64,000 nucleotides of DNA from Saccoglossus kowalevskii (Eukaryota > Hemichordata > Enteropneusta > Harrimaniidae). Below the pieces are notes generated by a model. That model saw only the letters and a list, made by a program, of their open reading frames with translations. It ran no database searches and was not told where the DNA came from. Location of the stretch: contig NW_003131863.1 of assembly GCF_000003605.2 (NCBI RefSeq), forward strand, positions 365,030-429,029. The letters are read 5' to 3'. Of the stretch, positions 3,001-64,000 are shown one piece after another. Made by a program: the position numbers and the translations under genes. Position 1 is the stretch's first letter. Each line of letters starts with the position of its first letter.

Positions 3001-3687
3001 CTGCTGACTTGTGCTCACGTGGGATTTGTAGTGACACAGTTTTACTATGATTACAAGCATCACATTAAACAAAACTGTTTGCGTGGCATCCTAATAGAGG
3101 AATCAGGGTTAGTTTAGGTTATTTTATTACATTTCCATGCAAGTAATTACTGTTCGTCTTTAGATATGTATGATACTCGTTAAAGACCTAATCTTGCCGG
3201 AAATGTGTTGCATCATCTATATGCAAATCTGGTTCTTCTAGTCTAAGCTTAAGATCCGAACAAAAAATGCAATTTCTAGATACAACTGACCTCAATAACC
3301 CCCTATTCAATCTCCATAGTATTGTATCGTCAATTAAAGACTAGTCAATACAGGGAGAAAGTTTGTTTAGAGAAGCTAGTTTTTTGCTTTTCACGCATCA
3401 TCATATATCAGCATTTTAAGTACAGGTAGTCGCTTAATAAAAGTGTGTTCATGATTGTAAATGCCAAAAACGTAGTCACCATCTTATAAACTATAAACAA
3501 TACTATTATAACGTGAAGTGTCGAATTAAGGTTCATTCAAATAAATACAAAAATGTGTATTGTACGCGCTGTCATCTACTCATTAATATTTCAATTCTTA
3601 TCACGTGACGTTGAAAGCATCATTCTAATACGTCTCAATAGCCGAATCCGCATCAGCTCAGTTGTTAAAGACCGTGTGTGTCCCTGT
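1..3687. other. Unique AT-rich non-coding DNA
   Basis: No gene is recognised here. Short open frames exist on both strands, the longest on the minus strand at 1697-2116 (139 codons). None shows a recognisable domain, a run of codon-like sequence or clear splice-site context. No tandem repeat or long inverted repeat was noticed before the minisatellite at 3688. Confidence 0.6.
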
Positions 3688-4041
3688 CTGTTGGAATCGG
3701 ACGTGTGTGTCTGTGTCTGTCTGTTGGAATCGGACGTGTGTGTCTGTGTCTGTCTGTTGGAATCGGAGGTGTGCGTGTTTCTGTCTGTTGGAATCGGACG
3801 TGTGTGTCTGTGTCTGTCTGTTGGAATCGGACGTGTGTGTCTGTGTCTGTCTGTTGGAATCGGAGGTGTGCGTGTGTCTGTCTGTTGGAATCGGAGGTGT
3901 GCGTGTTTCTGTCTGTTGGAATCGGACGTGTGTGTCTGTGTCTGTCTGTTGGAATCGGACGTGTGTGTCTGTGTCTGTCTGTTGGAATCGGAGGTGTGCG
4001 TGTTTCTGTTTGTTGCAATCGGAAGCTTGTGCGTGCTTTTA
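3688..4041. repeat. Minisatellite with 33- and 31-bp units in a higher-order pattern
   Basis: Tandem units each begin CTGTTGGAATCGGA. Two unit types occur: a 33-bp type continuing CGTGTGTGTCTGTGT (D) and a 31-bp type continuing GGTGTGCGTG (E). Unit starts are 3688 D, 3721 D, 3754 E, 3785 D, 3818 D, 3851 E, 3882 E, 3913 D, 3946 D, 3979 E, then a decayed unit from 4010. The order DDE-DDE-E-DDE means the 97-bp triplet DDE is itself repeated. All three plus frames and one minus frame stay open because the unit contains no stop codons. The 31-bp units shift the frame, so the 117-170 codon frames here are by-products and not a gene. Confidence 0.93.
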
Positions 4042-4059
4042 TCTGTTAGAATTGACGTT

Positions 4060-5583: not shown

Positions 5584-5752
5584 TTAACCTTTTCATCACC
5601 AGTTCCCACTTTTCATCACAAAATAGTCCCATTTATATTCCGCACTTTTCTTCAGAAGATTGAGACAAAAATAGCAATTTTTTTGAGTAAAAACTGACAA
5701 TTGACTCAAATTTTGTCTGTTGGGCGAAAAAGTCTGGTGATGAAAAGGTTAA
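5584..5752. mobile_element. Palindromic MITE with perfect 19-bp ends and TTAA termini
   Basis: The left end TTAACCTTTTCATCACCAG (5584-5602) is the exact reverse complement of 5734-5752. The 169-bp unit therefore has perfect 19-bp terminal inverted repeats, including TTAA at both outer edges. TTAA target duplication is known for piggyBac-type transposases, so a non-autonomous piggyBac-like element is a reasonable inference. The interior is AT-rich and has no open frame. The identical ends suggest a fairly recent insertion. No second copy was noticed in the window. It differs in sequence from the TTAA family at 10351, 49463 and 63435. Confidence 0.85.
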
Positions 5753-6756
5753 TCCCATCTTCTTGTCATAATGTTCATTATCTGGAGGGGGTGTTTAGAC
5801 CAGACCACTCGCCGCATTGTCGGTGTCTTTATATTGCGTCAAAACATTCTCTGCTCAATATACGTCACTAACACATATTCATGTCTATTCACACAACCCT
5901 ACACACTAGCATACGTTTTTACTGGCACCAGCGGAACCAAAATTAATACGGCACTTTGAAAACGAATGTTTATGTCTTAATAAACTGTGACCGATCGTTA
6001 TATATATAATATATATACTGCAAATACATTATTTTCTTGAAGTGAAAATTCCCGTCAAATACTAAGATAAACGACCAGATTATGTACTCCTCTCCATTGT
6101 TATTTCTGTCACTACCAGCCCCCGTGGTACGTGTGATTCCCCAACAAATGTAGTAGCTGAAGGTAAGATGGTTTTTGCAAGTTAGGTCACTGCGTTCAAT
6201 AACTAATTAGATCACAGTTCCGAAACTGATTGGCCAAAAGTTGCGATTTAAAACATAGTTTCACACAATTGATCAGGTCCTGGTAATCAACTATCTAGTG
6301 CGTAGGGCTGTATGTAGGGACATTCCTAGTGCATTTACTACACACTCAACCCTCTGTTTATGTTCGCATTGATCAGCACAGTCTAGTTATTATTTCAGTA
6401 CCAAAACCATCTAGATAGTATTAACAATATCTAGGATTGAGCAACTTAATCGTACTTATCTTTATAAATGGCCTGAGGATCAGAATAAAAATCATCATTG
6501 ATTATACTATTGCAATCCATTATCTCAATCAATATACGTTACTTTTTATAGTTACAGAAGAGCAATGATTGGGTAGCTATATAGTTAAGTACATCTAGAG
6601 GCATGCTGGTCCAAGATACTCGGTAATATATCGATTCAGTCACGTGCATCAATACTCCCCATGTTCTTTTAAGTGTTGATATTTACCAAAGTATGCATAA
6701 TTATTATGTATTTATGTATGTATGTATGCCTTGGGGTTTAACCTTTACAGTCACCT
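5753..6756. other. Unique non-coding DNA with a TATG microsatellite
   Basis: No gene is recognised. An alternating AT palindrome lies at about 5999-6019. A short (TATG)n tract lies at about 6703-6729, just before the foldback at 6757. Confidence 0.55.
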
Positions 6757-6884: not shown

Positions 6885-8610
6885 TTCTGTGAACTGTGAA
6901 TATGAATTACAAGACATCTATATATGAATTATGTTGGACGTCTGTAAATATATAATAAGGGAGAAATCTGCGTTGGTCGATTTTACTTGTATGTATACGT
7001 TGTATTCCCATGTTGGTTATCTTATATTATTGTCTATACGTCGTTAGTTCAAAAACTTGAAATGTTAAATTATTAAAATTAATTCCTATTTATGATCATA
7101 GTGATTATTGTGGCATTCCGAATGCATACTTTCCAGTAATAATGTGGACGCCTGTTTAATGTCACGTGTGGATTACAAATCAACTGTTTGTCACACATAA
7201 TCAGTATACCTTACCTAGTATATCCTGTTACGCTTACAGAGTTAAGTATCGGACAAGGTATGAATAATTGAATGCAAGTTCAAATAAAGTATCACACTCA
7301 GTTTTGCACCATGGTTACTGAAACTATTCGCTTATACGATGTAAATGGAAACGTTCGTATAAATCCTTTTAACACTGCTCTTTGCAATACTACTCACTAA
7401 TTGTTTTTCAATTCTATCACCGGGGTGACAGGTGTTTATAAATGCGTATGCTAGAAATACAATATTGTATTGTCCAGTGTGGAATAATGAACCCTTATGT
7501 CTCTGTCAGTTATATTTCAAAGTGGCAAATTGATGGCAGAAATGAATTTGCATATTGATTGTAAATGCTGTCTTGGTTTCAATTTATTTTCTCTTTCATG
7601 AATTTAGAATTAATTGTATTGATGGAGGTATTTCGAGACTGCTTCATCTATAATGTTCATGTATGTTCCGTGCATGCATATTTTCCGGCTCAGAAAACTG
7701 AAATATAAAGATCAGTGCTCCCACTTATCCTAATTACCGCCTGAGTATGATTGATGTATGGCTATACACAAACGTACACGTGTAGCTCGCATGTGCTTTT
7801 AGAGTCTTCGAGTCTGTCAAGTTTCATTTGTGTCTAGCTGGAGAACTATCCTATTGTATCGTTTGTATGTAGTAGTTTCTCCCATCTCTGTGTATAATCG
7901 CAAGTATACTTAAAAAAAATATCTACTGTAATATATTGTGCTATAATATAATTACAGGCGGGAGTATAAACCCGCAGCACACTAGACACGAGACACGAAT
8001 TCGCGACTTGATGAGCAAGTGCAAACCAAATCTCTGAACTCCCAACCTACTAACTACAATCCGATACGTATTATTTTTCCATGAAGTGTCAATATATTGA
8101 TGAGGATGAAAGTGACGTAAATTACTAGGTCAAACTGCAGACAACTAAATCTAAAGAGAATTGTTTTGAACAGTCCAGACTAACTCATCTTTCTCTTTCA
8201 ATGTCCGATTTTACTAGTCATATTTTTTTAGTAAGGTTTGACATCTTCTGACTTTGCTTGTACTGTGTAACGATAATCCACTATGACACCTTCCATGTCT
8301 TTCACGAATGTCAGATATCTCACTGAGTGAGAGAACAATCTGTTAAGACAGTTGCGCATGCGCAGTGATTGTTTGCTAACACACATAAAACGATATGGCA
8401 TTATTCGCTATATACTATACTAACTCTTGCTTCCCATTCAAATACTAGTGATGAAAGGCCATTCCCCAAAATGTATATTTATTTCGAATAATGTATTAGG
8501 GACTACGGCCCCAAAATACCATTGTCAATATGTTATGTTTCCAGTGTTATATAATGTTTTTAAAGTATTTAGTGTATATGTTTATCGATTTCTTAAAAAG
8601 GTTATGGTTA
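6885..8610. other. Unique non-coding DNA
   Basis: No gene is recognised. A weak minus-strand tRNA-like stretch at about 7962-8052 was considered and not accepted. The short palindrome TTGCGCATGCGCA lies near 8351. Nothing else was noticed. Confidence 0.5.
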
Positions 8611-9490: not shown

Positions 9491-10350
9491 TACATGTGCG
9501 TGTGTAACTTATACAAAACTCCTTAGTAGGTTGGTTAATATTGTCATTTGAACCCAATCTACATGTTGTCTCATTCAACACATTCAGCATTACATTTTTA
9601 ATTTTTTTTTCATTCCTGATATGAAGGAGCACGTTCAGGCATAATGCTGTCTATACACAAATGTCACGTGACAGGGAATTTGCAGTGCGTTTTTAAAATC
9701 AGTATAATGCGATTGCAAGAGAAACAGAGCTGACGTTTACATGATATGTCACCAGTGTTTAGAGAAGTGTACAGAGGATTGTATTCACCGTTCTAGTAAG
9801 TCAACACCTCAAGCTTCTTCAAATCATTTTCTTTTAAATTCAAAGACAGTTCCCCCTGGCATTTTCTTCCTATTCGTCTGTGTAAATTTAGTTTATTTTT
9901 ACCGTGGGGCTTGTCGAAGCAGAAGCTCTTATTCATCATTCACAGACGATACAACGTAAGGCAACTGTAATGTATTGTTGCAACAAATGCAAAGAATTGC
10001 GACGACTGATAAAACATGTTCTAAAAAAATTGTGTGTTGTTTCTATCGTCACATTGTTGTGTAAACGTGTCAACATGACAGGGGTAATGCATTTAGAAGC
10101 ATTGAACTGATAAGGTACAACACACTTTATTTTTTATTTACCCGTGCCCGTTTGTTTTATACACCCATTGCGGTATATACAGAAATTCAACCTGTCACCT
10201 GCATGAATTTTGTCCATATTATTTAATTTTTATATTTAGCCGTATAAACAATGAAGGAAATTATGTCTATTTGATCCAAAATTAACGAAGGAATTATGGA
10301 GAAGTGCATATATTAAATGTGCAGCATGGGGCATTTAACAATAATGATTG
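9491..10350. other. Unique non-coding DNA
   Basis: No gene or repeat was recognised. Overlapping frames of about 70 codons occur at 9741-10110, with no recognisable features. Confidence 0.5.
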
Positions 10351-10515
10351 TTAAAGCCGGGGAGTCGCCACCTGCGCATGCGTCAGATGGCCATACCTTG
10401 TCATTGTTTACAAACAAGCGTCTACCCATGAGCCTTTGCGCATTTAGCGTGTGTTGTTATCATCGCTTGGGACTCAATTCCCGCGCATGCGCATGTGACA
10501 ACCCTCCCGCTTTAA
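10351..10515. mobile_element. TTAA-ended palindromic MITE (family T1), copy 1
   Basis: The element starts TTAAAGCCGGGGAGTCGCCA and ends ACCCTCCCGCTTTAA. The two ends are imperfect inverted repeats over about 35 bp, with shared GCGCATGCG motifs. TTAA lies at both edges. The interior contains TTGTTTACAAAC and GTTATCATCGCTTGGGACTC, which recur in the copies at 49463-49599 (inverted) and 63435-63589 (same orientation). No coding capacity is visible. The TTAA ends suggest piggyBac-type mobilisation, which is an inference. Confidence 0.88.
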
Positions 10516-24800: not shown

Positions 24801-25814
24801 GTTTTATCACTGTTCCCGGACGTTTACTGTTGATAAGGTTTGTAAACTTGAAGTTGAGATTCGATGAGTCATGTACCTGGTTTTGATAAATTACTGTTTT
24901 AGCTCATTTTAATGTTCCCATGCATAGGTCATGTGACGAAATACAACATTATTATAATATTTCCCAATATATTGAATATATTAGAATAATTTGTAATGTT
25001 ATTATGCCACATTTGCATGGAAATAGCAGCATGTACATAACACACTACGCAACACATATGTAGTTTTATGAAGGCTTCGTCACTAATGGTGATCATTTAT
25101 CATTGATCAATTGTGTACTAAAGTCATATTTTGTAATCATCGGAAAAAACACATATTTGTGTCTGGAGCCAATAGAAAATTGTGTTCAGTTACTCCACCA
25201 TTATAAAAAAAAGTTATTATATAAAAATATTTAAAAATAGGCAATATGTTCAACATTATTTCTGTCAAAAATATACGAAATAATCATGATTTCAACTTTT
25301 TCTGCTATTGGTGTGCTGTATCGGATCCACGTAGTCTGGTTGCCAGTGAGCTATACGTAGAAACATACACGGCTTGTTTGTTTGTTTGTTTGTTGATTTA
25401 ATATCCAGGGTGTATGTATTATAATGCTTCAAATAATTATTTTTATTTAGTGGACCATTCGTTGCCATGTTTTTCAATATTATATACTGCTACTGATATA
25501 GCAAACACTTGCCGTAGGTTATTGTTGTCAATGTAATAATATAAAAGTGCATACAAATCAGATGACTTTAAAACTTTAAAACGAGTTTTTGAATTTATGA
25601 ACAAAGTTGTGTTAGCTTCCTGGTTAAATACACTTGGTATATATCTGTATGTATATACAATACAACATATAGATTCATAATTTTTTTCTTCCAACAACAA
25701 CTATTAGTTTGTGTTCGACAAAACAAGGATTATAGATGAAAATGTAAATGTAATTTGTTATTTAGTGGACATGCTATATATCAACCAGACTTTTGAATCC
25801 TTTGTGCTTCTATG
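18851..25814. other. Long unique non-coding stretch
   Basis: Almost 7 kb in which I recognise no gene, RNA or repeat beyond a (TTTG)n tract at about 25374-25395. Open frames are short; the longest is 112 codons at 23025-23363, without recognisable motifs. The TGACGTCA-like octamer near 21666 is a single occurrence and not a supported regulatory call. Confidence 0.55.
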
Positions 25815-26347
25815 AAACTGCATGAATTATACAACAGCCATGATAAGGGCAGCCAGAAGACAAGTTATATTTTTTGTAGATAGCTAATGACAACGCATTT
25901 TGGTGATGAGCTAGTTCTCGTACAAAAATGGTGTGCCAGCATGTTATGTTTCAGATATGCTGTTATACTGTTCTCATGCATCTACAACTAGTAAAAGTTC
26001 AAGGTGACGAAGATGATGAACTTCTACCTGGAAGAGTGACACAACAAATAAAACGGAATGATATTCCGAAACTTGATAATTATGATCTTAGCGAGTTTAT
26101 ATATTACAGAGAAGTTGCAAATACCAGTATCACTTTGTTGTCACTAATATCTAAACTAGTCACAAACGCTATAACAAGATAACCACTGGGTTTTCACAGG
26201 CCATTCAATCCCATGTAAAACAACTTGGTCTTGCTACAAAGAGGATAATAATTACTTTGTTAAACGAGTATGGATACACTGTAACTTATGATGTGGTCCT
26301 TAGGTTGAGATAATCAATTGCAAAGTTGAAAAATGTCACTGCAAGAA

Positions 26348-26445
26348 GTCTCGGTGGCCGAGGGGAAGACGTGTAGTGGCGTGAAGCTAGGCGATTAGGT
26401 GCCGTATGCGAGCGTCGGTTCGAGTCACGCACGCAGTACGTGTTT
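26348..26445 (+). repeat. tRNA-like (Leu/Ser type) Pol III element inside the pseudogene
   Basis: GTCTCGGTGGCCGAGGGG contains a full A-box match, TGGCCGAGGGG, at 26355-26365. GGTTCGAGTCA at 26417-26427 matches the B-box at 10 of 11 positions. The 51-nt spacing fits a tRNA with a long variable arm (Leu or Ser type). The acceptor and T stems pair poorly, so this is not a convincing working tRNA. A tRNA-derived SINE or tRNA pseudogene inserted into the decayed protein copy is the likeliest reading. The surrounding sequence resembles the protein family on both sides. Confidence 0.6.
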
Positions 26446-27349
26446 ACTATAATTAGACATAGTCTTTACCTTGCCGTTTATTTGGTGTTATTTGCTTACT
26501 TTACTTCCTATGTCGACAGCAACTATGAGTTTAAAATTATTTCTCAGTACAGTTAGTCGTTGGTTTGGAAGAAGGGAGATTGATGCAATGACTGGGTAAT
26601 TCACTCAACAATCTTACACAGTAGAAGTAACTGAAACTGACAATGTTTCACCATTGTCATACCAAAACGAAAAAAGTCACATGTAGAACATAAACCTTAG
26701 TGAAACTTGGCCTTAAAACCTAATATTCAGTGGTTAACATGGTTTATCACCAAAACGAATGATGGCCAACCTACCGTAGAAGGATCAGGACATATGTCCA
26801 CAAAGCCACTTGTTATATCTTTGGTTCGTTTATTGATGCCATCTCATCAAACTCTGACACTGTGATTACCACACTTCTTCTCTGTAAACAATTGATGAAG
26901 CAACATGGAAAACACTATATGCACTTAGTATCTGAAATTTAGTAGCTCATTTTCAGGTTTGCTATCGAATGAGGCCAGGTGGCATACACATGTAATCTGC
27001 TAATTGTTTTGGCAAACATATGAAGGCAATAGAATAGGAACATTTGAATGCTGCATTTGGTGGAGGCAGCAGCATGCCAAATGGAAAGACTTGGTCAAAA
27101 GCAGTGAGAGGACTTCGAGTGGTAGTGAATGCCTCCTGGAGAAGAATGTTCTTGATGAAAAAAAAAATTGAAGAGCTATAATCAGTTCTCAGTGAAGATA
27201 GAACAACCCATAAAAGAACACTTATGGGTCGCTGCCTCATAATTCACATCATAATCATTCTCCTCTTTATTCATGCAGAAAGAGGGGCAAACTGGATATT
27301 GCACCTATATTGTGTTGATAAAATGGTATGTTACTTTTTTGCTGGTCAA

Positions 27350-27370
27350 CAATGATAGATAGATAGATAC
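27350..27370. repeat. Short (GATA)n tract
   Basis: A run of about four GATA units within the decayed protein copy, where it interrupts the similarity to the family. Confidence 0.7.
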
Positions 27371-29105
27371 GTTCTTTGGAATTTGTTGGAAATGATGGGA
27401 ATGCTTCCCGAAAATGCTGATGCAATATTCATGCAATGTATGCCGACACAAGTCTAGTGTATAGAATGATGTTATCAGTGACCAATTTGGAGAGCAAATA
27501 TACATTAGATATGGTAATTCCAAAAGAGGTCTAATGTGCATATTACTGTCACCTGACCAGGTTGCATGCTAGATATTATCTCACTAATGTGTACTACAGT
27601 TTCCTTTGCTATGAATAACATGTTTGCTTCTGAAGATAATGAGTATGATGGCATCTTGCACAAACATAAAGAAGTGGCGCCAAACATAGAGATTGGATTT
27701 AGAAGACTGACAGAAAATAGCAGAAGAGTCAGATAAACACATCAATCCACTGAAAACTAGGAAGTTATTTATTGTTAATGGGCGTGTGTCATAAGAACAG
27801 GTTACTGTTAAAAATGCTGTGATTATTGGTGAGAAAATGGCAAATTAATTTTAAGATAAATTTCCGGGTGGATTATATGAAAACAAGTGGTGACAAGGGT
27901 GTCAAAGTAGGGAACAATATACTCTACAACATGGAAAAACTGTATACTTGCATGTTGGTAATGAATCAAACACGAGATTTTGATCTGAAGCATGTGATAT
28001 GCTACGAGCTGACACCACTTTCAAGTATAGGACATGGGAAAAGTGAAACATAGAACAGTTGATTGAAAACCTTAGCGTTTTCACTTCATCAATGGACACA
28101 AGTGGGGTAATAATAATTGATAGAAATCTACCATGTTACATGGCCTAAACAAAATTGTCTTCATGTTGCCGGGAGAAAACAAGATGTTGTTGTTGTATTT
28201 GATAAACCCGTTGAATTGAATTCAAAGATCATACGCTAGTGAAATCCTGCATTCTGCAAGATCCAATTGATTAGGTGTTAATATTACCGTAAAACAAATT
28301 GATTGATAGGAGATGATTAGAGAGAACACTCAAGGGCAATCTGGACATGAAGAAGCATAAGATGTACGCATCATCAGTTATTTGTTTCTCTAGGTTCAAG
28401 AAACTTATCTGAGTTGTTACTGATGGTACAAACATATTTGTTTTGTTATTATAATTCCACTAGAAAGAGAAACAAACCAGAAACAAAACTCACAATGAAG
28501 AATTTCAATAGTGAAATAATAGACATTAATGCAACAGCACACGAACTGGACATTAGATTCACAGGGTGCGATTAGATATATTTTCCATTTCGAAAAAGAA
28601 ACGTTTCTACACTCAATATGATGAATAAGAAAAATTGATTGGAAAGCCATTAATAATATTAAAACATTCTTCTTTATTCTGACTTCTGTATTCTATTTTA
28701 CAAGTTATTCACCTGCAAAATGGATCACATCACTTCCTCCTACAGATGACAACCTTGAGTATCACATGATGCATGCACACCCTATGATATGGAAGGCTTC
28801 TGACCAACATCACTCCCTCCCTCTAGATACTAAGGAGTTTGGATGGAATATAGTTAACAATAATCCACATCCACCAATTGCTAAACATAATGTGGCACCT
28901 GCGGGACTCATGAAAGTGGTTGTCTGTTGCTGTTCGTTTTATATGGCATTTTCTCACAATAGCTGTTCCTGCAAAGTAGTGAGTTTATAATGTACAATCA
29001 TGTACGCCATTTCGTAATTGCGATGTCAGTTATGTATGCTTCAATAAATCCACTAGTGTAGATCATTCGGTTGATGAAAACTTGGGCAGTGGCGCTGAAG
29101 ATTAA

Positions 29106-30424
29106 GCTCAATAAACTATCATTACTAGTATTTTCATGAATAAGTATTATATTTTTTTATCGAAAAACCTATACTTTGGATTGTTGTAATTAAAACATTA
29201 TTACGATGTATTAGTAGTGTTTGCATGTGAGAGTGGCCTGAATACAAGCCTTATCTGAGAAGTAACATGTGATCATATTTCATAAAAATATTCTACCGCT
29301 TGACATTCTAAATGACCAACTAATCCTGCCATTGTGTATCTACATAAACACTGCATAATTACATACATACGATACATTATACCATCTATATATGGTAACA
29401 ATTGATAACTATTTGATGTCATGAACAATTTTAAAAAATAGCAATCGATATGACTGTATATGAAAATTTTATTTGACATTATGATGAACAACAACTCATG
29501 TTTGCTTTATTATGCAATTAATATTATGATCAGTAACAATTTTTTATTGAATGTCAGGTCACAAACAAAATGTGCTGTCTAGACTGACAATCTGAAATGA
29601 GCCTGTACTGACAGTGTATGATAATGTAAATAAAGAAGCACTATGTAATGTACTGATCATGTGACATGGCAATGTTTACCCACAAGCTTAGTGGTGTTCT
29701 TTCTGTTGATATCCTGGTCGGAAATGCGTCACAGGGCGATATTAAAATTCAATACTCTACAGTATGTAATTATGTTTAATAATCCTAACAATGTATTTCA
29801 ACAAATGTTCACAGTCGGTCAGATAAAGAGACGCGTATACGGTGGAATTGACAATTCTGTATCATGTATATTTGTTCTGCGCCGAGGGTATTCGTTTGAA
29901 TTAAAAATGATATTTTAATATCCAGGATATTGACAATCATTTTTCCATACATATGTCTATTTGAGATTTTAGGCAACGTTTGAAATGAAATTTGTTGATG
30001 ACAGGTACCATGTGTTCGGCTTTTGTGAAGTCAGCTGACACGTTATAAAAAAATAAGTTGGGTGGCCTATCATAGTCGTTCAATTTACGCAATCATGTAT
30101 GTATGTAAATCCCAGTCGACGTGAACGTGACCAGTTACAAATAATGAGCCCGAGGTATATTCCTTATCTCGAATTAATATTTAAAATTGATGGAACAGTG
30201 TTAGTACACGTTTTCCCTAGTGGTCAGTGTGATTAGGGTGATGGATAATTGTATGCATTTTACACGAAATAAGCAACATGCCTATTGTGAAAATAAATTG
30301 GTGTACCGTTTATTCAGCGTACGATTTTATACAACATTGACTCCGTGTGCAGTAAAATCGTGTCAGTTTTGACTTTCTACACGCAAACACATAGTGAACT
30401 ATGTACGGAGAAGAGTTTTGTTTA
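29106..30424. other. Unique non-coding DNA
   Basis: No gene was recognised. An AATAAA hexamer lies at 29110, right after the pseudogene stop. Nothing else is supported. Confidence 0.5.
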
Positions 30425-30790
30425 GCTGCCGAATAGAGCTTATTATACGTCGTCGTCTGGGTCAACTTTTTACTTGTTCGATTTCTTCTTGAAAACAACA
30501 AGCCTGATTGCTTTAATACTTGGTGTATATGTGCCTTGTGCAGACCTCACTCCATTTCATGATGATGTCTTTAATTCTCTAATTTAGATTAATACTTTTT
30601 TTAAAATAGTGATAGTTTTGACTTCTTGTTGAAAACCACAAGGCTTTGATTTAATTCATATAGGTACTACAGGTGGACCTCTCTCATATTTGTTCATTTC
30701 GTGATGATATATTCAATTCTTTAATTGAAATGTGCATTGCTAACAAGGGAGCCGAGAGGCTGCTTGTTTTAAATCCACACGCTCCCAGGT
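30425..30790. repeat. Module repeat (family R2), two tandem modules
   Basis: The first module has CGTCGTCGTCTGGGTCAAC, TTCGATTTCTTCTTGAAAAC, AACAAGCCTGATTGCTTTAA and CATGATGATGTCTTTAATT. The second has TTTGACTTCTTGTTGAAAAC, CACAAGGC, CATATAGGTACTACAGGTGG, ACCTCTCTCATATTTG and GTGATGATATATTCAATT. It closes with GCCGAGAGGCTGCTTGT, exactly as the copy ending at 16870 does. This is the longest copy of the family in the window and shows that the 15618 fragment belongs to it. Class unknown. Confidence 0.78.
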
Positions 30791-33069: not shown

Positions 33070-33251
33070 GACCACATACGTGCAACTGTAGGAGTGCGCA
33101 TAAATATCTTCTCTTTCAGAATTAGTCAATGAATCAGAAAGTTTGAATTGAATACTTGAGGACCACATACGTGCAACTGTCGGAGTGCGCATAAATATCT
33201 TCTCTTTCAGAATTAGTCAATGAATCGTAAAGTTTGAATTGAATACTTGAG
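33070..33251. repeat. 91-bp tandem duplication
   Basis: The 91 bases 33070-33160, starting GACCACATACGTGCAACTGT, are directly repeated at 33161-33251. I see only three substitutions between the copies: one in ACTGT(A/C)GGAG and two adjacent in AATC(AG/GT)AAAG. The arrangement is head to tail with no spacer, so it is a recent local duplication. The unit contains no recognised gene. Confidence 0.93.
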
Positions 33252-49440: not shown

Positions 49441-49462
49441 GTATTAACATGTAATTTTATGA

Positions 49463-49599
49463 TTAAATAGGGAGGGTCGTCAGCTGCGCACGCGCGAGAA
49501 TTGAGTCCAAGGCGATGATAAAAACACACACGAGTAGACGCTTGTTTGTAAACAATGACACGCTATAGCCAACTGACGCGTGCGACTCCCCCGCTTTGA
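49463..49599. mobile_element. TTAA MITE family T1, copy 2 (inverted)
   Basis: It begins TTAAATAGGGAGGGTCGTCA and ends GCGACTCCCCCGCTTTGA. The interior has GAATTGAGTCCAAGGCGATG, CGCTTGTTTGTAAACAATGA and CACGCTATAGCC, the reverse complement of the order at 10351 and 63435. The right-hand TTAA has become TTGA. At 137 bp it is shorter than the other two copies. Confidence 0.85.
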
Positions 49600-50820
49600 G
49601 ATAAACATCTTTGTTACTTCCTTCAGTTTATAAAAGCAATGGAAAAGACATAATTCCACTCCTTGTATAGGGACAACAAGTATTAATTTCTCTTAGCTTA
49701 ATGAACTGCGGTCGTAACTGTTCTCACTTAGTTTTTCAAGGCACCAAGGCCATATAAATATCCCATATGTTTAATTCTCTACTGACATAAGATAAGCAAC
49801 CATGTGTCATTTTTGTCAGTCACAATTCACAGCCTAACCGAAACTGAACTGACCAATGCTATTATATCTGAAGGTGTCCAATATCTAGATTTTCAACGAG
49901 CAAGGTTCTATTAGTTACGCTATGTTTTATATATTTGCAAAGTAATCACGCTCTCGTGGATTGGTTCGGAAGTGGTGCCTTGCGTCCAATCATGCGAGAA
50001 TTATTGCCAGGGTTGAAAGGGGAAACATCGATGAACGCATCTATAGACTTCCTTGATTAAATGTGATTACAGTTGAAAAGCGATTCTTAAGGACGGGTAT
50101 AAACACTATTATGTATGACCAAATACCGTGCCATTGAGTGCAGAGATGCAAATATCCAAGCTATGTGTTAAAATGTCCACGTGCTTTGCTCATCGATTCA
50201 TATATAGTGCAATAGACCAGGAAATTTGCATACGTATTTCTGCGCCTTCTTCTGTGTTTGGGAAAAATTCTCTTATTATACATAGATTCATATTCGATGT
50301 GACATATGGCAGCGTAGTTACAATGACATTTCTTGGCGCAGTGTAACACTCCGGGTAACAATTCTTAACTAGTACTCGATTCATGCGTTTGACTATAGTA
50401 TTTTACCGCATTCAACAACTATTTCCTTCTTTCTTTACCATCTGACCAAATTTGACTAGTTCGTTCGTTTTAAATACCAGATATCGAAACAAATACTGCA
50501 TGTGTGTAGGAGAGAATTTAGTGATGACGCAATCAAGATCGGAGTTATCTGAAAACATTTTCTTTGATCCGAAAAGCCTAATATTGCAGAAAACAGACTC
50601 ACGTGCGAATCGATATGGGATACATGGAGGAAAAATAATACACACCGTCGACAAATGCGAAATATTAATCGGTGGCCGCGGGAAGTAGCTTGCCGAATCT
50701 TAAATTGGGAAATCATATATCTGTTTCTAAATTGTTCAACTTAATAGTTTATTGACCTTTCAGCTGAGCAGGCTATTGGTGTGTGTACTTGGATTGCTAT
50801 ATGTTGCGAGGACAAAAATA
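49600..50820. other. Unique non-coding DNA
   Basis: No gene was recognised. Frames at 50452-50716 overlap on both strands and have no known motif. Confidence 0.5.
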
Positions 50821-63434: not shown

Positions 63435-63589
63435 TTAAAGCTAGAGAGTCGTCACCTGCGCGTGCGTCAGGCGGCCATAGCGTGTCATTGTTTACAAACA
63501 TGAGCCTTGGGTTTTTATTTGCGTGTGTTGTTATCGTCGGTTGGGATTCAGTTTCCGCGCGTGCGCAGGTGACGACCCTCCCGCTTTAA
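63435..63589. mobile_element. TTAA MITE family T1, copy 3
   Basis: It starts TTAAAGCTAGAGAGTCGTCA and ends GACGACCCTCCCGCTTTAA. The interior has GCCATAGCGTGTCATTGTTT, ACAAACATGAGCC, GCGTGTGTTGTTATCGTCGG and TTGGGATTCAG, in the same order and orientation as 10351-10515. TTAA is intact at both edges. At 155 bp it is somewhat shorter than copy 1. Confidence 0.88.
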
Positions 63590-64000
63590 TATAGGATGAA
63601 TACGTGCTTAACGCTTCTAAATATAGATCACGTTCAAACGTCACGTGAAAAGCGCTGATGGTACACCCAGGATTATCGACTAGACCCGCACACATCATCT
63701 TCTCAATACAATACAATGCAGTAAATGTTCTTACACGCACTTCGGAAGTTGAATAACACTACTGTGTAACGTTGTTTCAACACATTACATACGTTACGTG
63801 ACGAACGTCACAGAGCTAGGCGCGATGATGGAATAATCGCGTGTTCAATTCCGAGGGGAGTGGGATAATCAGACAACACAGCGTGTCAGCACTTTTTTGG
63901 TGAAATTAAAAACTATAAACTGAAGTATAACATTGCTCACAGTATGCACGGATAACAAGTGTGACAGCTGCTATCGTATTTAACATAACTAATAATTTCG
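63590..64000. other. Unique non-coding DNA
   Basis: No gene or repeat was recognised. Confidence 0.5.

Follow-up and report, generated by a model that had tools for sequence, protein, structure and literature searches.

The Academ superfamily of DNA transposons, with its AcademX lineage, reportedly goes back to Kapitonov and Jurka in 2010 and to Kojima in 2020, and the nuclease of AcademX is one that we take to be XPG-like. A second point of reference is given by the KDZ transposases, which are associated with CxC cysteine clusters, and by Zisupton, whose target duplication is 8 bp long. The passages on Academ in one study give duplications of 9-10 bp for AcademH and of 3-4 bp for AcademX, linked to the encoded helicase and nuclease (PMC10045372), and a passage of another puts the mean length of the curated Academ elements of bivalves, the molluscs in which Academ is mainly found, at 5565 bp (PMC10294476).

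The locus that we compare with these systems lies in a window, by which we mean the whole 64,000-nucleotide stretch of Saccoglossus kowalevskii DNA that was analysed, positions 365030-429029 of contig C2350, and we read it, with a probability of roughly 85%, as what remains of the coding part of a large cut-and-paste DNA transposon, in a single copy that is now dead. When the open frames of related loci are compared with the window by tblastn, collinear matches to the relatives of one large protein run along the plus strand from 26027 to 29044; these relatives are found elsewhere in the same 572-Mb genome (4830 contigs). A query set of 199 coding-strand frames, taken from 15 loci, gave 25 HSPs at E<=1e-3 in the stretch 25201-29300, all on the plus strand, and the same queries gave none at that threshold in 18 control sequences (one reversed, ten block-shuffled and seven other stretches of the window). 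A single relative, L032, suffices to follow the order of the protein, matching in turn 26027-26170 (E 8e-4), 26704-26799 with 26805-26939 (E 3e-7), 27296-27436 (E 7e-7), 27693-27839 (E 0.001), 27895-28026 (E 6e-8), 28468-28635 (E 2e-5) and 28772-28969. The parts of the relic are collected in Table 1.

Table 1. Parts of the relic, in window coordinates, and what each rests on.
Feature	Position	Strand	Basis
First supported part of the relic	26027..26352	+	tblastn to L038, L032, L029 and L025; first DNA-level match to a relative (L038) begins at 25892
tRNA-like or SINE-like stretch with B-box-like (presumed) GGTTCGAGTC	26345..26450	+	Sequence; gap in protein matches
Candidate transposase block	26704..27172	+	L032 and L029 matches; alignment A2 of relatives
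AERGANWILHLYCVDKM block	27011..27566	+	L035, L032 and L042 matches; alignment A3, including window 27182-27352
Linker with the KHVICYELTPL block at its end	27693..28026	+	L032 matches
Place of the putative FEN/EXO1/XPG-like nuclease region	28117..28635	+	Position between flanking blocks; L032 match; L037 DNA matches
C-terminal block: HAHPMIWKA, Cys cluster, acidic end, stop	28694..29105	+	tblastn; alignment A4
AATAAA, putative poly(A) signal of the element's gene	29110..29115	+	AATAAACTAT shared with L026 and L025

Other relatives support the same parts by tblastn. At the 5' side, a frame of L038 matches 26045-26170 (E 8e-10, 57% identity), L029 matches 26167-26352 (E 5e-6), and residues 426-457 in the N-terminal frame of L025, which has 519 codons, have their counterpart at window 26230-26325 (E 0.005). 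Further on, L029 matches 26817-26927 and 26975-27172 (E 6e-9) across the candidate transposase block, where relatives show TxD and LGxFHxxMSFLxxIG (alignment A2), L035 matches 27011-27394 (E 3e-11), L042 matches 27444-27566, and in relatives a D-x3-E follows the AERGANWILHLYCVDKM block (alignment A3). The nuclease region is eroded in the window, protein comparison detecting its later part only (the L032 match at 28468-28635), and DNA of L037 matches at 27741-28203 and 28363-28530. The C-terminal end has 16 sense-frame matches from 15 loci in 28694-29044 (best E 1e-9), and the final 60 bases before the stop are uncovered.

An earlier note on this DNA had claimed, from the letters alone, that ordered peptide landmarks on one strand mark one decayed copy of a large protein, multicopy and uncharacterised, whose tail is Cys-rich, and in this it was right. 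The landmarks AERGANW...LHLYCVDKM and KHVICYELTPL, the cysteine cluster and the acidic tail were found in frames where they had been placed (AERGANWILHLYCVDKM in 27182-27355, KHVICYELTPL in 27823-28053, the cysteine cluster and acidic end in 28625-28990 and 28983-29105), in blocks that run in shifting frames along the plus strand over 26027-29105. Only KLHE at 25815, proposed as the 5' landmark, found no support, the best protein match in 25201-26026 having an E of 0.29. Just upstream of the relic, at window 25440 and 25755, stands the direct repeat TTTTTATTTAGTGGAC / TTGTTATTTAGTGGAC, which contains a TAGTG like that of the family termini described below and for which an inverted partner was not found.

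In all six frames stops are about as frequent in the relic as in the stretches next to it, and so the window copy is thoroughly decayed; it is a dead, inert fossil. None of ten relic pieces reached the Pfam cut-off, and a 231-base DNA query, cut from a block that ranks among the best of the relic, matched only itself in the genome, so that no close DNA copy was found. Protein matches are absent between 26352 and 26704, and this is where the tRNA-like or SINE-like stretch sits; Rfam and ARAGORN made no call on 26345-26450 and no further copy of it was seen in the window or among fetched loci longer than 4 kb, and the stretch is probably a SINE inserted later into the dead gene. As for the ends of the window copy, no TIR or duplication is recognisable: 39 pairs of TAGT[G/C] / [G/C]ACTA were tried and none reached 15/20, and local alignment of the flanks gave a score of 28, with shuffles reaching up to 30. 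That this copy, too, came in as an element of that kind and later lost its ends we infer from its family.

Other repeats are present in the window. The complete set of tblastn queries held frames from both strands of the loci, hence the antisense hits inside the relic, and the other hits that this set gave elsewhere in the window are to other repeats, for example L040:579-896; frames near that part of L040 match window 10329-10514, 49461-49681 and 63451-63591 (best E 6e-20), an unrelated dispersed repeat. A short DNA repeat common to L043 lies outside the relic at 30553-30716 (84% over 128 bases), a 91-bp unit stands twice in tandem at 33070-33251 with 96% matches, and 3684-4052 is a tandem array of about ten copies of a 33-bp unit with long open frames on both strands.

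Taken by its sequence, the family consists of a large predicted protein, uncharacterised and multicopy, of which the window holds a single decayed copy. Searching the genome with the C-terminal piece 28625-28987 brings up 22 further places at E<=1, including eight at E<=1e-3; 20 of 22 regions, at up to 10 kb, and two more copies make up the related loci that were examined (L024-L045). A frame of the nuclease block (L018:1783-2718, minus strand) gives 67 matching rows at E<=1e-3, which, merged per copy, correspond to at least 61 places, that of the query included. Translated matching thus joins the relic through many blocks over 26027-29044 to a multicopy family, as had been proposed, and does so within the same genome. 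The nearest fetched relatives, L037 and L038 on contig C1737, are 57-71% identical to the window in short protein stretches and 64-93% in DNA pieces. No relatives were seen in viral and prokaryotic genome contig collections by short peptide pattern scans, nor in phages and plasmids by tblastn; a PDB sequence search with the family protein gave no convincing match, and the protein family is not described among the literature matches listed, a search for the EADTR motif included.

The architecture of the protein is best seen in its fullest relative, L025, in which about 4.7 kb hold frames of 519, 301, 308 and 352 codons and a C-terminal piece, the frames overlapping or standing at most 69 bases apart, so that a protein of this type would have some 1,500 residues, though its frames are broken. 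From the N-terminus the order is two CxxC...HxxC modules, a block that has a conserved D as well as GxFH, an HL...MLPYF block followed by D-x3-E, a block with EEADTR, SPDTDV and GCDT (RADT in L025 itself), and at the C-terminus the cysteine cluster and acidic tail that the earlier note had called a Cys-rich tail. In the parts scanned, Pfam returned nothing better than E 0.002, never reached its printed cut-offs and gave no transposase or nuclease call. For a DDE triad there are candidate residues: the conserved D is present in all five rows with letters (A2) and D-x3-E in six of seven (A3), and between them no clear third acidic residue is seen, only GxFH.

The block with DTDV and GCDT, which in L024 lies at 5678-6616 on the minus strand, we take to be a FEN1/EXO1/XPG-like nuclease, a predicted kinship that both Pfam and HMMER against PDB sequences missed. 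A profile of 13 open pieces from eight loci, compared by hhalign with seven FEN/RAD27/EXO1 sequences, gave a score of 38.5, an E of 1.5e-4 (for a single comparison) and a probability of 52% over 125 columns, while 60 profile controls (one reversed, 59 column-shuffled) gave scores of at most 19.8 and probabilities of at most 0.64. The alignment pairs SPDTDVLV with SEDSDLLV and GCDT..HGKRTA with GCDY..VGLITA; the first two acidic motifs fall outside it and EEADTR in a gap, and all three were matched by eye. Against five archaeal FENs alone, the best alignment again falls on the GCDT motif, and its score of 20.7, against a maximum of 18.9 in 30 controls, is not significant. FENs from viral contigs were considered as a further yardstick and dropped, as they amounted to one short locus. 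The likeness to the structure-specific nucleases of the Rad2 family (FEN1/EXO1/XPG) lies in five acidic motifs in the same order and at broadly similar spacing, at 14, 61, 161, 187 and 250 in L024 and at 30, 78, 150, 171 and 227 in EXO1, and the order is identical in L024, L025, EXO1 and 1b43. The family differs in a longer gap between the second and third motif, in having EEADTR where EXO1, matched by eye, has FEADS, and in that its nuclease block sits in a transposon gene.

The ends of the relatives show how the family has moved. Enclosing inverted repeats are found in 8 of the 22 related loci (L024, L026, L027, L028, L030, L042, L043 and L044), and no such pair was seen in the other 14, the loci being unequally covered by the methods: the terminus rule was run on all 22, with no pair for comparison in L032, L025, L033 and L039, and the flank alignment covered 12. 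Among the 14 are L033, with one recognisable end, L025, whose 3' end falls where a contig begins, and several loci that contain runs of N. In L024 and L044, two copies of one element that are 82-93% identical in pieces, the inverted repeats measure about 200-350 bp each; L024 further carries at 7262-8207 a MITE-like insertion of 0.95 kb, with inverted repeats of its own of about 200 bp, that is absent from L044.

Both ends, of the form TAGT[G/C]...[G/C]ACTA, are present in six copies, 3.6 to 5.8 kb apart, and four of the six have identical 3-bp flanks, while 1600 shifted comparisons never gave more than two. A 2-bp duplication of TA, suggested by the first two copies, was dropped because counting TA within the TIR gives these identical 3-bp flanks in four of six. 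A 246-bp TIR query found 13 places, namely four inverted pairs (C1351, C342, C1343 and C344; 4.6-6.5 kb apart) and five single ends; three of the four pairs enclose a nuclease match, and the genome search with the L018 nuclease frame gave none within the C1343 element. C1343 (ATA/ATA) and C344 (CTT/CTT), which were examined only after the 3-bp rule had been fixed on the first six copies, both follow it. Overall, six of the eight elements with both ends (3.6-6.5 kb, mean about 5.1 kb) have identical 3-bp flanks and none has identical flanks of 2, 4 or 5 bp, and when the flanks of one element are paired with those of another, 7 of 56 pairings agree; the two misses, L024 (ATA/AAA) and L044 (GTA/ATA), are each one of three bases off. 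The earlier note had asked if the copies multiply through a retro route or in the manner of a DNA element, and the flanks of the genomic copies, with their TIRs and 3-bp target duplications, answer for a DNA element and not for retrocopies: most likely the family moves in the form of DNA, with no RNA intermediate.

How such an element might work can be sketched from its domains. The family protein itself would move the element; the middle block, as the likely transposase core, would carry out strand transfer, the FEN1/EXO1/XPG-like nuclease would process the element ends, and the C-terminal cysteine cluster probably binds zinc and DNA. By its ends this is a TIR DNA transposon, and we consider it probable that it belongs to the AcademX branch of the Academ superfamily, the known kind that it fits best by description. 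Alternatively, the elements may form a separate, non-Academ TIR group with a FEN/XPG-like nuclease as its central enzyme and no standard DDE triad; such a group would be recognised by its TAGT[G/C] ends and 3-bp duplications, and would lack a Pfam model despite dozens of copies in the genome. We think this unlikely.

It is improbable, in our judgement, that the copies are a host gene family grown by segmental duplication, with transposable elements adjoining them by chance. Some copies do seem to have multiplied by duplication, apparently segmental, since L037 and L038, separated by about 80 kb on a single contig, resemble each other for several kb past the gene, and the 14 of 22 loci in which no TIR pair was seen would also suit a host gene. 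L024 and L044, however, share TIRs and gene on different contigs, and their similarity ends at TAGTG (TAGT[G/C] on both sides), beyond which the flanks are unrelated; a third contig, C344, carries the same TIRs around a nuclease match, and the eight elements have different 24-bp flanks, with no common sequence seen outside the TIRs.

Still less probable is that the genes are cargo of unrelated TIR elements and not their movers. The unproven DDE triad leaves room for this, the mobilising activity of the protein being a prediction, but five divergent groups (L024/L044, L026, L027, L028 and L030) combine the same type of terminus with the same gene, and in L024, L027, L028 and L030 the inner frames of at least 180 codons are those of this gene or antisense to it. 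L026 has one extra frame of 185 codons (1440-1994), which matched none of the queries used and was negative in a Pfam scan.

The AATAAA at 29110 was what had raised the question of a retro route. At the end of the frame, AATAAACTAT is shared by the window, L026 and L025, three of seven sequences inspected, and as the gene of L026 is enclosed by TIRs, with TAA as the duplication, the AATAAA probably serves the element's own gene as its poly(A) signal. A host gene retrocopied through its mRNA by LINE machinery, with AATAAA as the trace of a processed transcript, is the least probable reading of all: it would fit the position of the signal directly after the stop and a remnant in which an informal look recognised no intron, but in the 250 bases after the window stop there is no poly(A) run (longest A run 5), and for the TIR-bounded relatives it is contradicted by the TIRs of eight loci, by duplications of 3 bp where processed copies would have long ones of variable length, and by the shared AATAAACTAT.

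With the cut-and-paste DNA transposon as the preferred reading, a large uncharacterised protein family becomes a transposon whose ends are defined and whose target duplication can be tested, and the unusual EADTR block that the family conserves can now be tied to a putative domain of the flap-nuclease type. Annotations of animal genomes may count such genes as expansions of host gene families, and TIRs with 3-bp duplications offer a check.

Among the known systems, the KDZ transposases with their CxC clusters resemble the family in being large eukaryotic transposases with Cys-rich clusters; the family differs from them in giving no Pfam match in the parts scanned and in a duplication of 3 bp against the 8 bp of Zisupton. 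The likeness to Academ, as drawn from descriptions, lies in ends, duplication, length and nuclease. As in Academ and AcademX, TIRs surround the gene (in 8 of 22 related loci, though they are not visible in the window copy), and the elements, at 3.6-6.5 kb, compare with the 5565-bp mean given in the passage on bivalve Academ. With AcademX in particular the family shares a duplication of 3 bp, in six of eight elements, against the 3-4 bp that the passages cited above give for AcademX and the 9-10 bp for AcademH, and a nuclease-like block within the same gene (profile E 1.5e-4, probability 52%).
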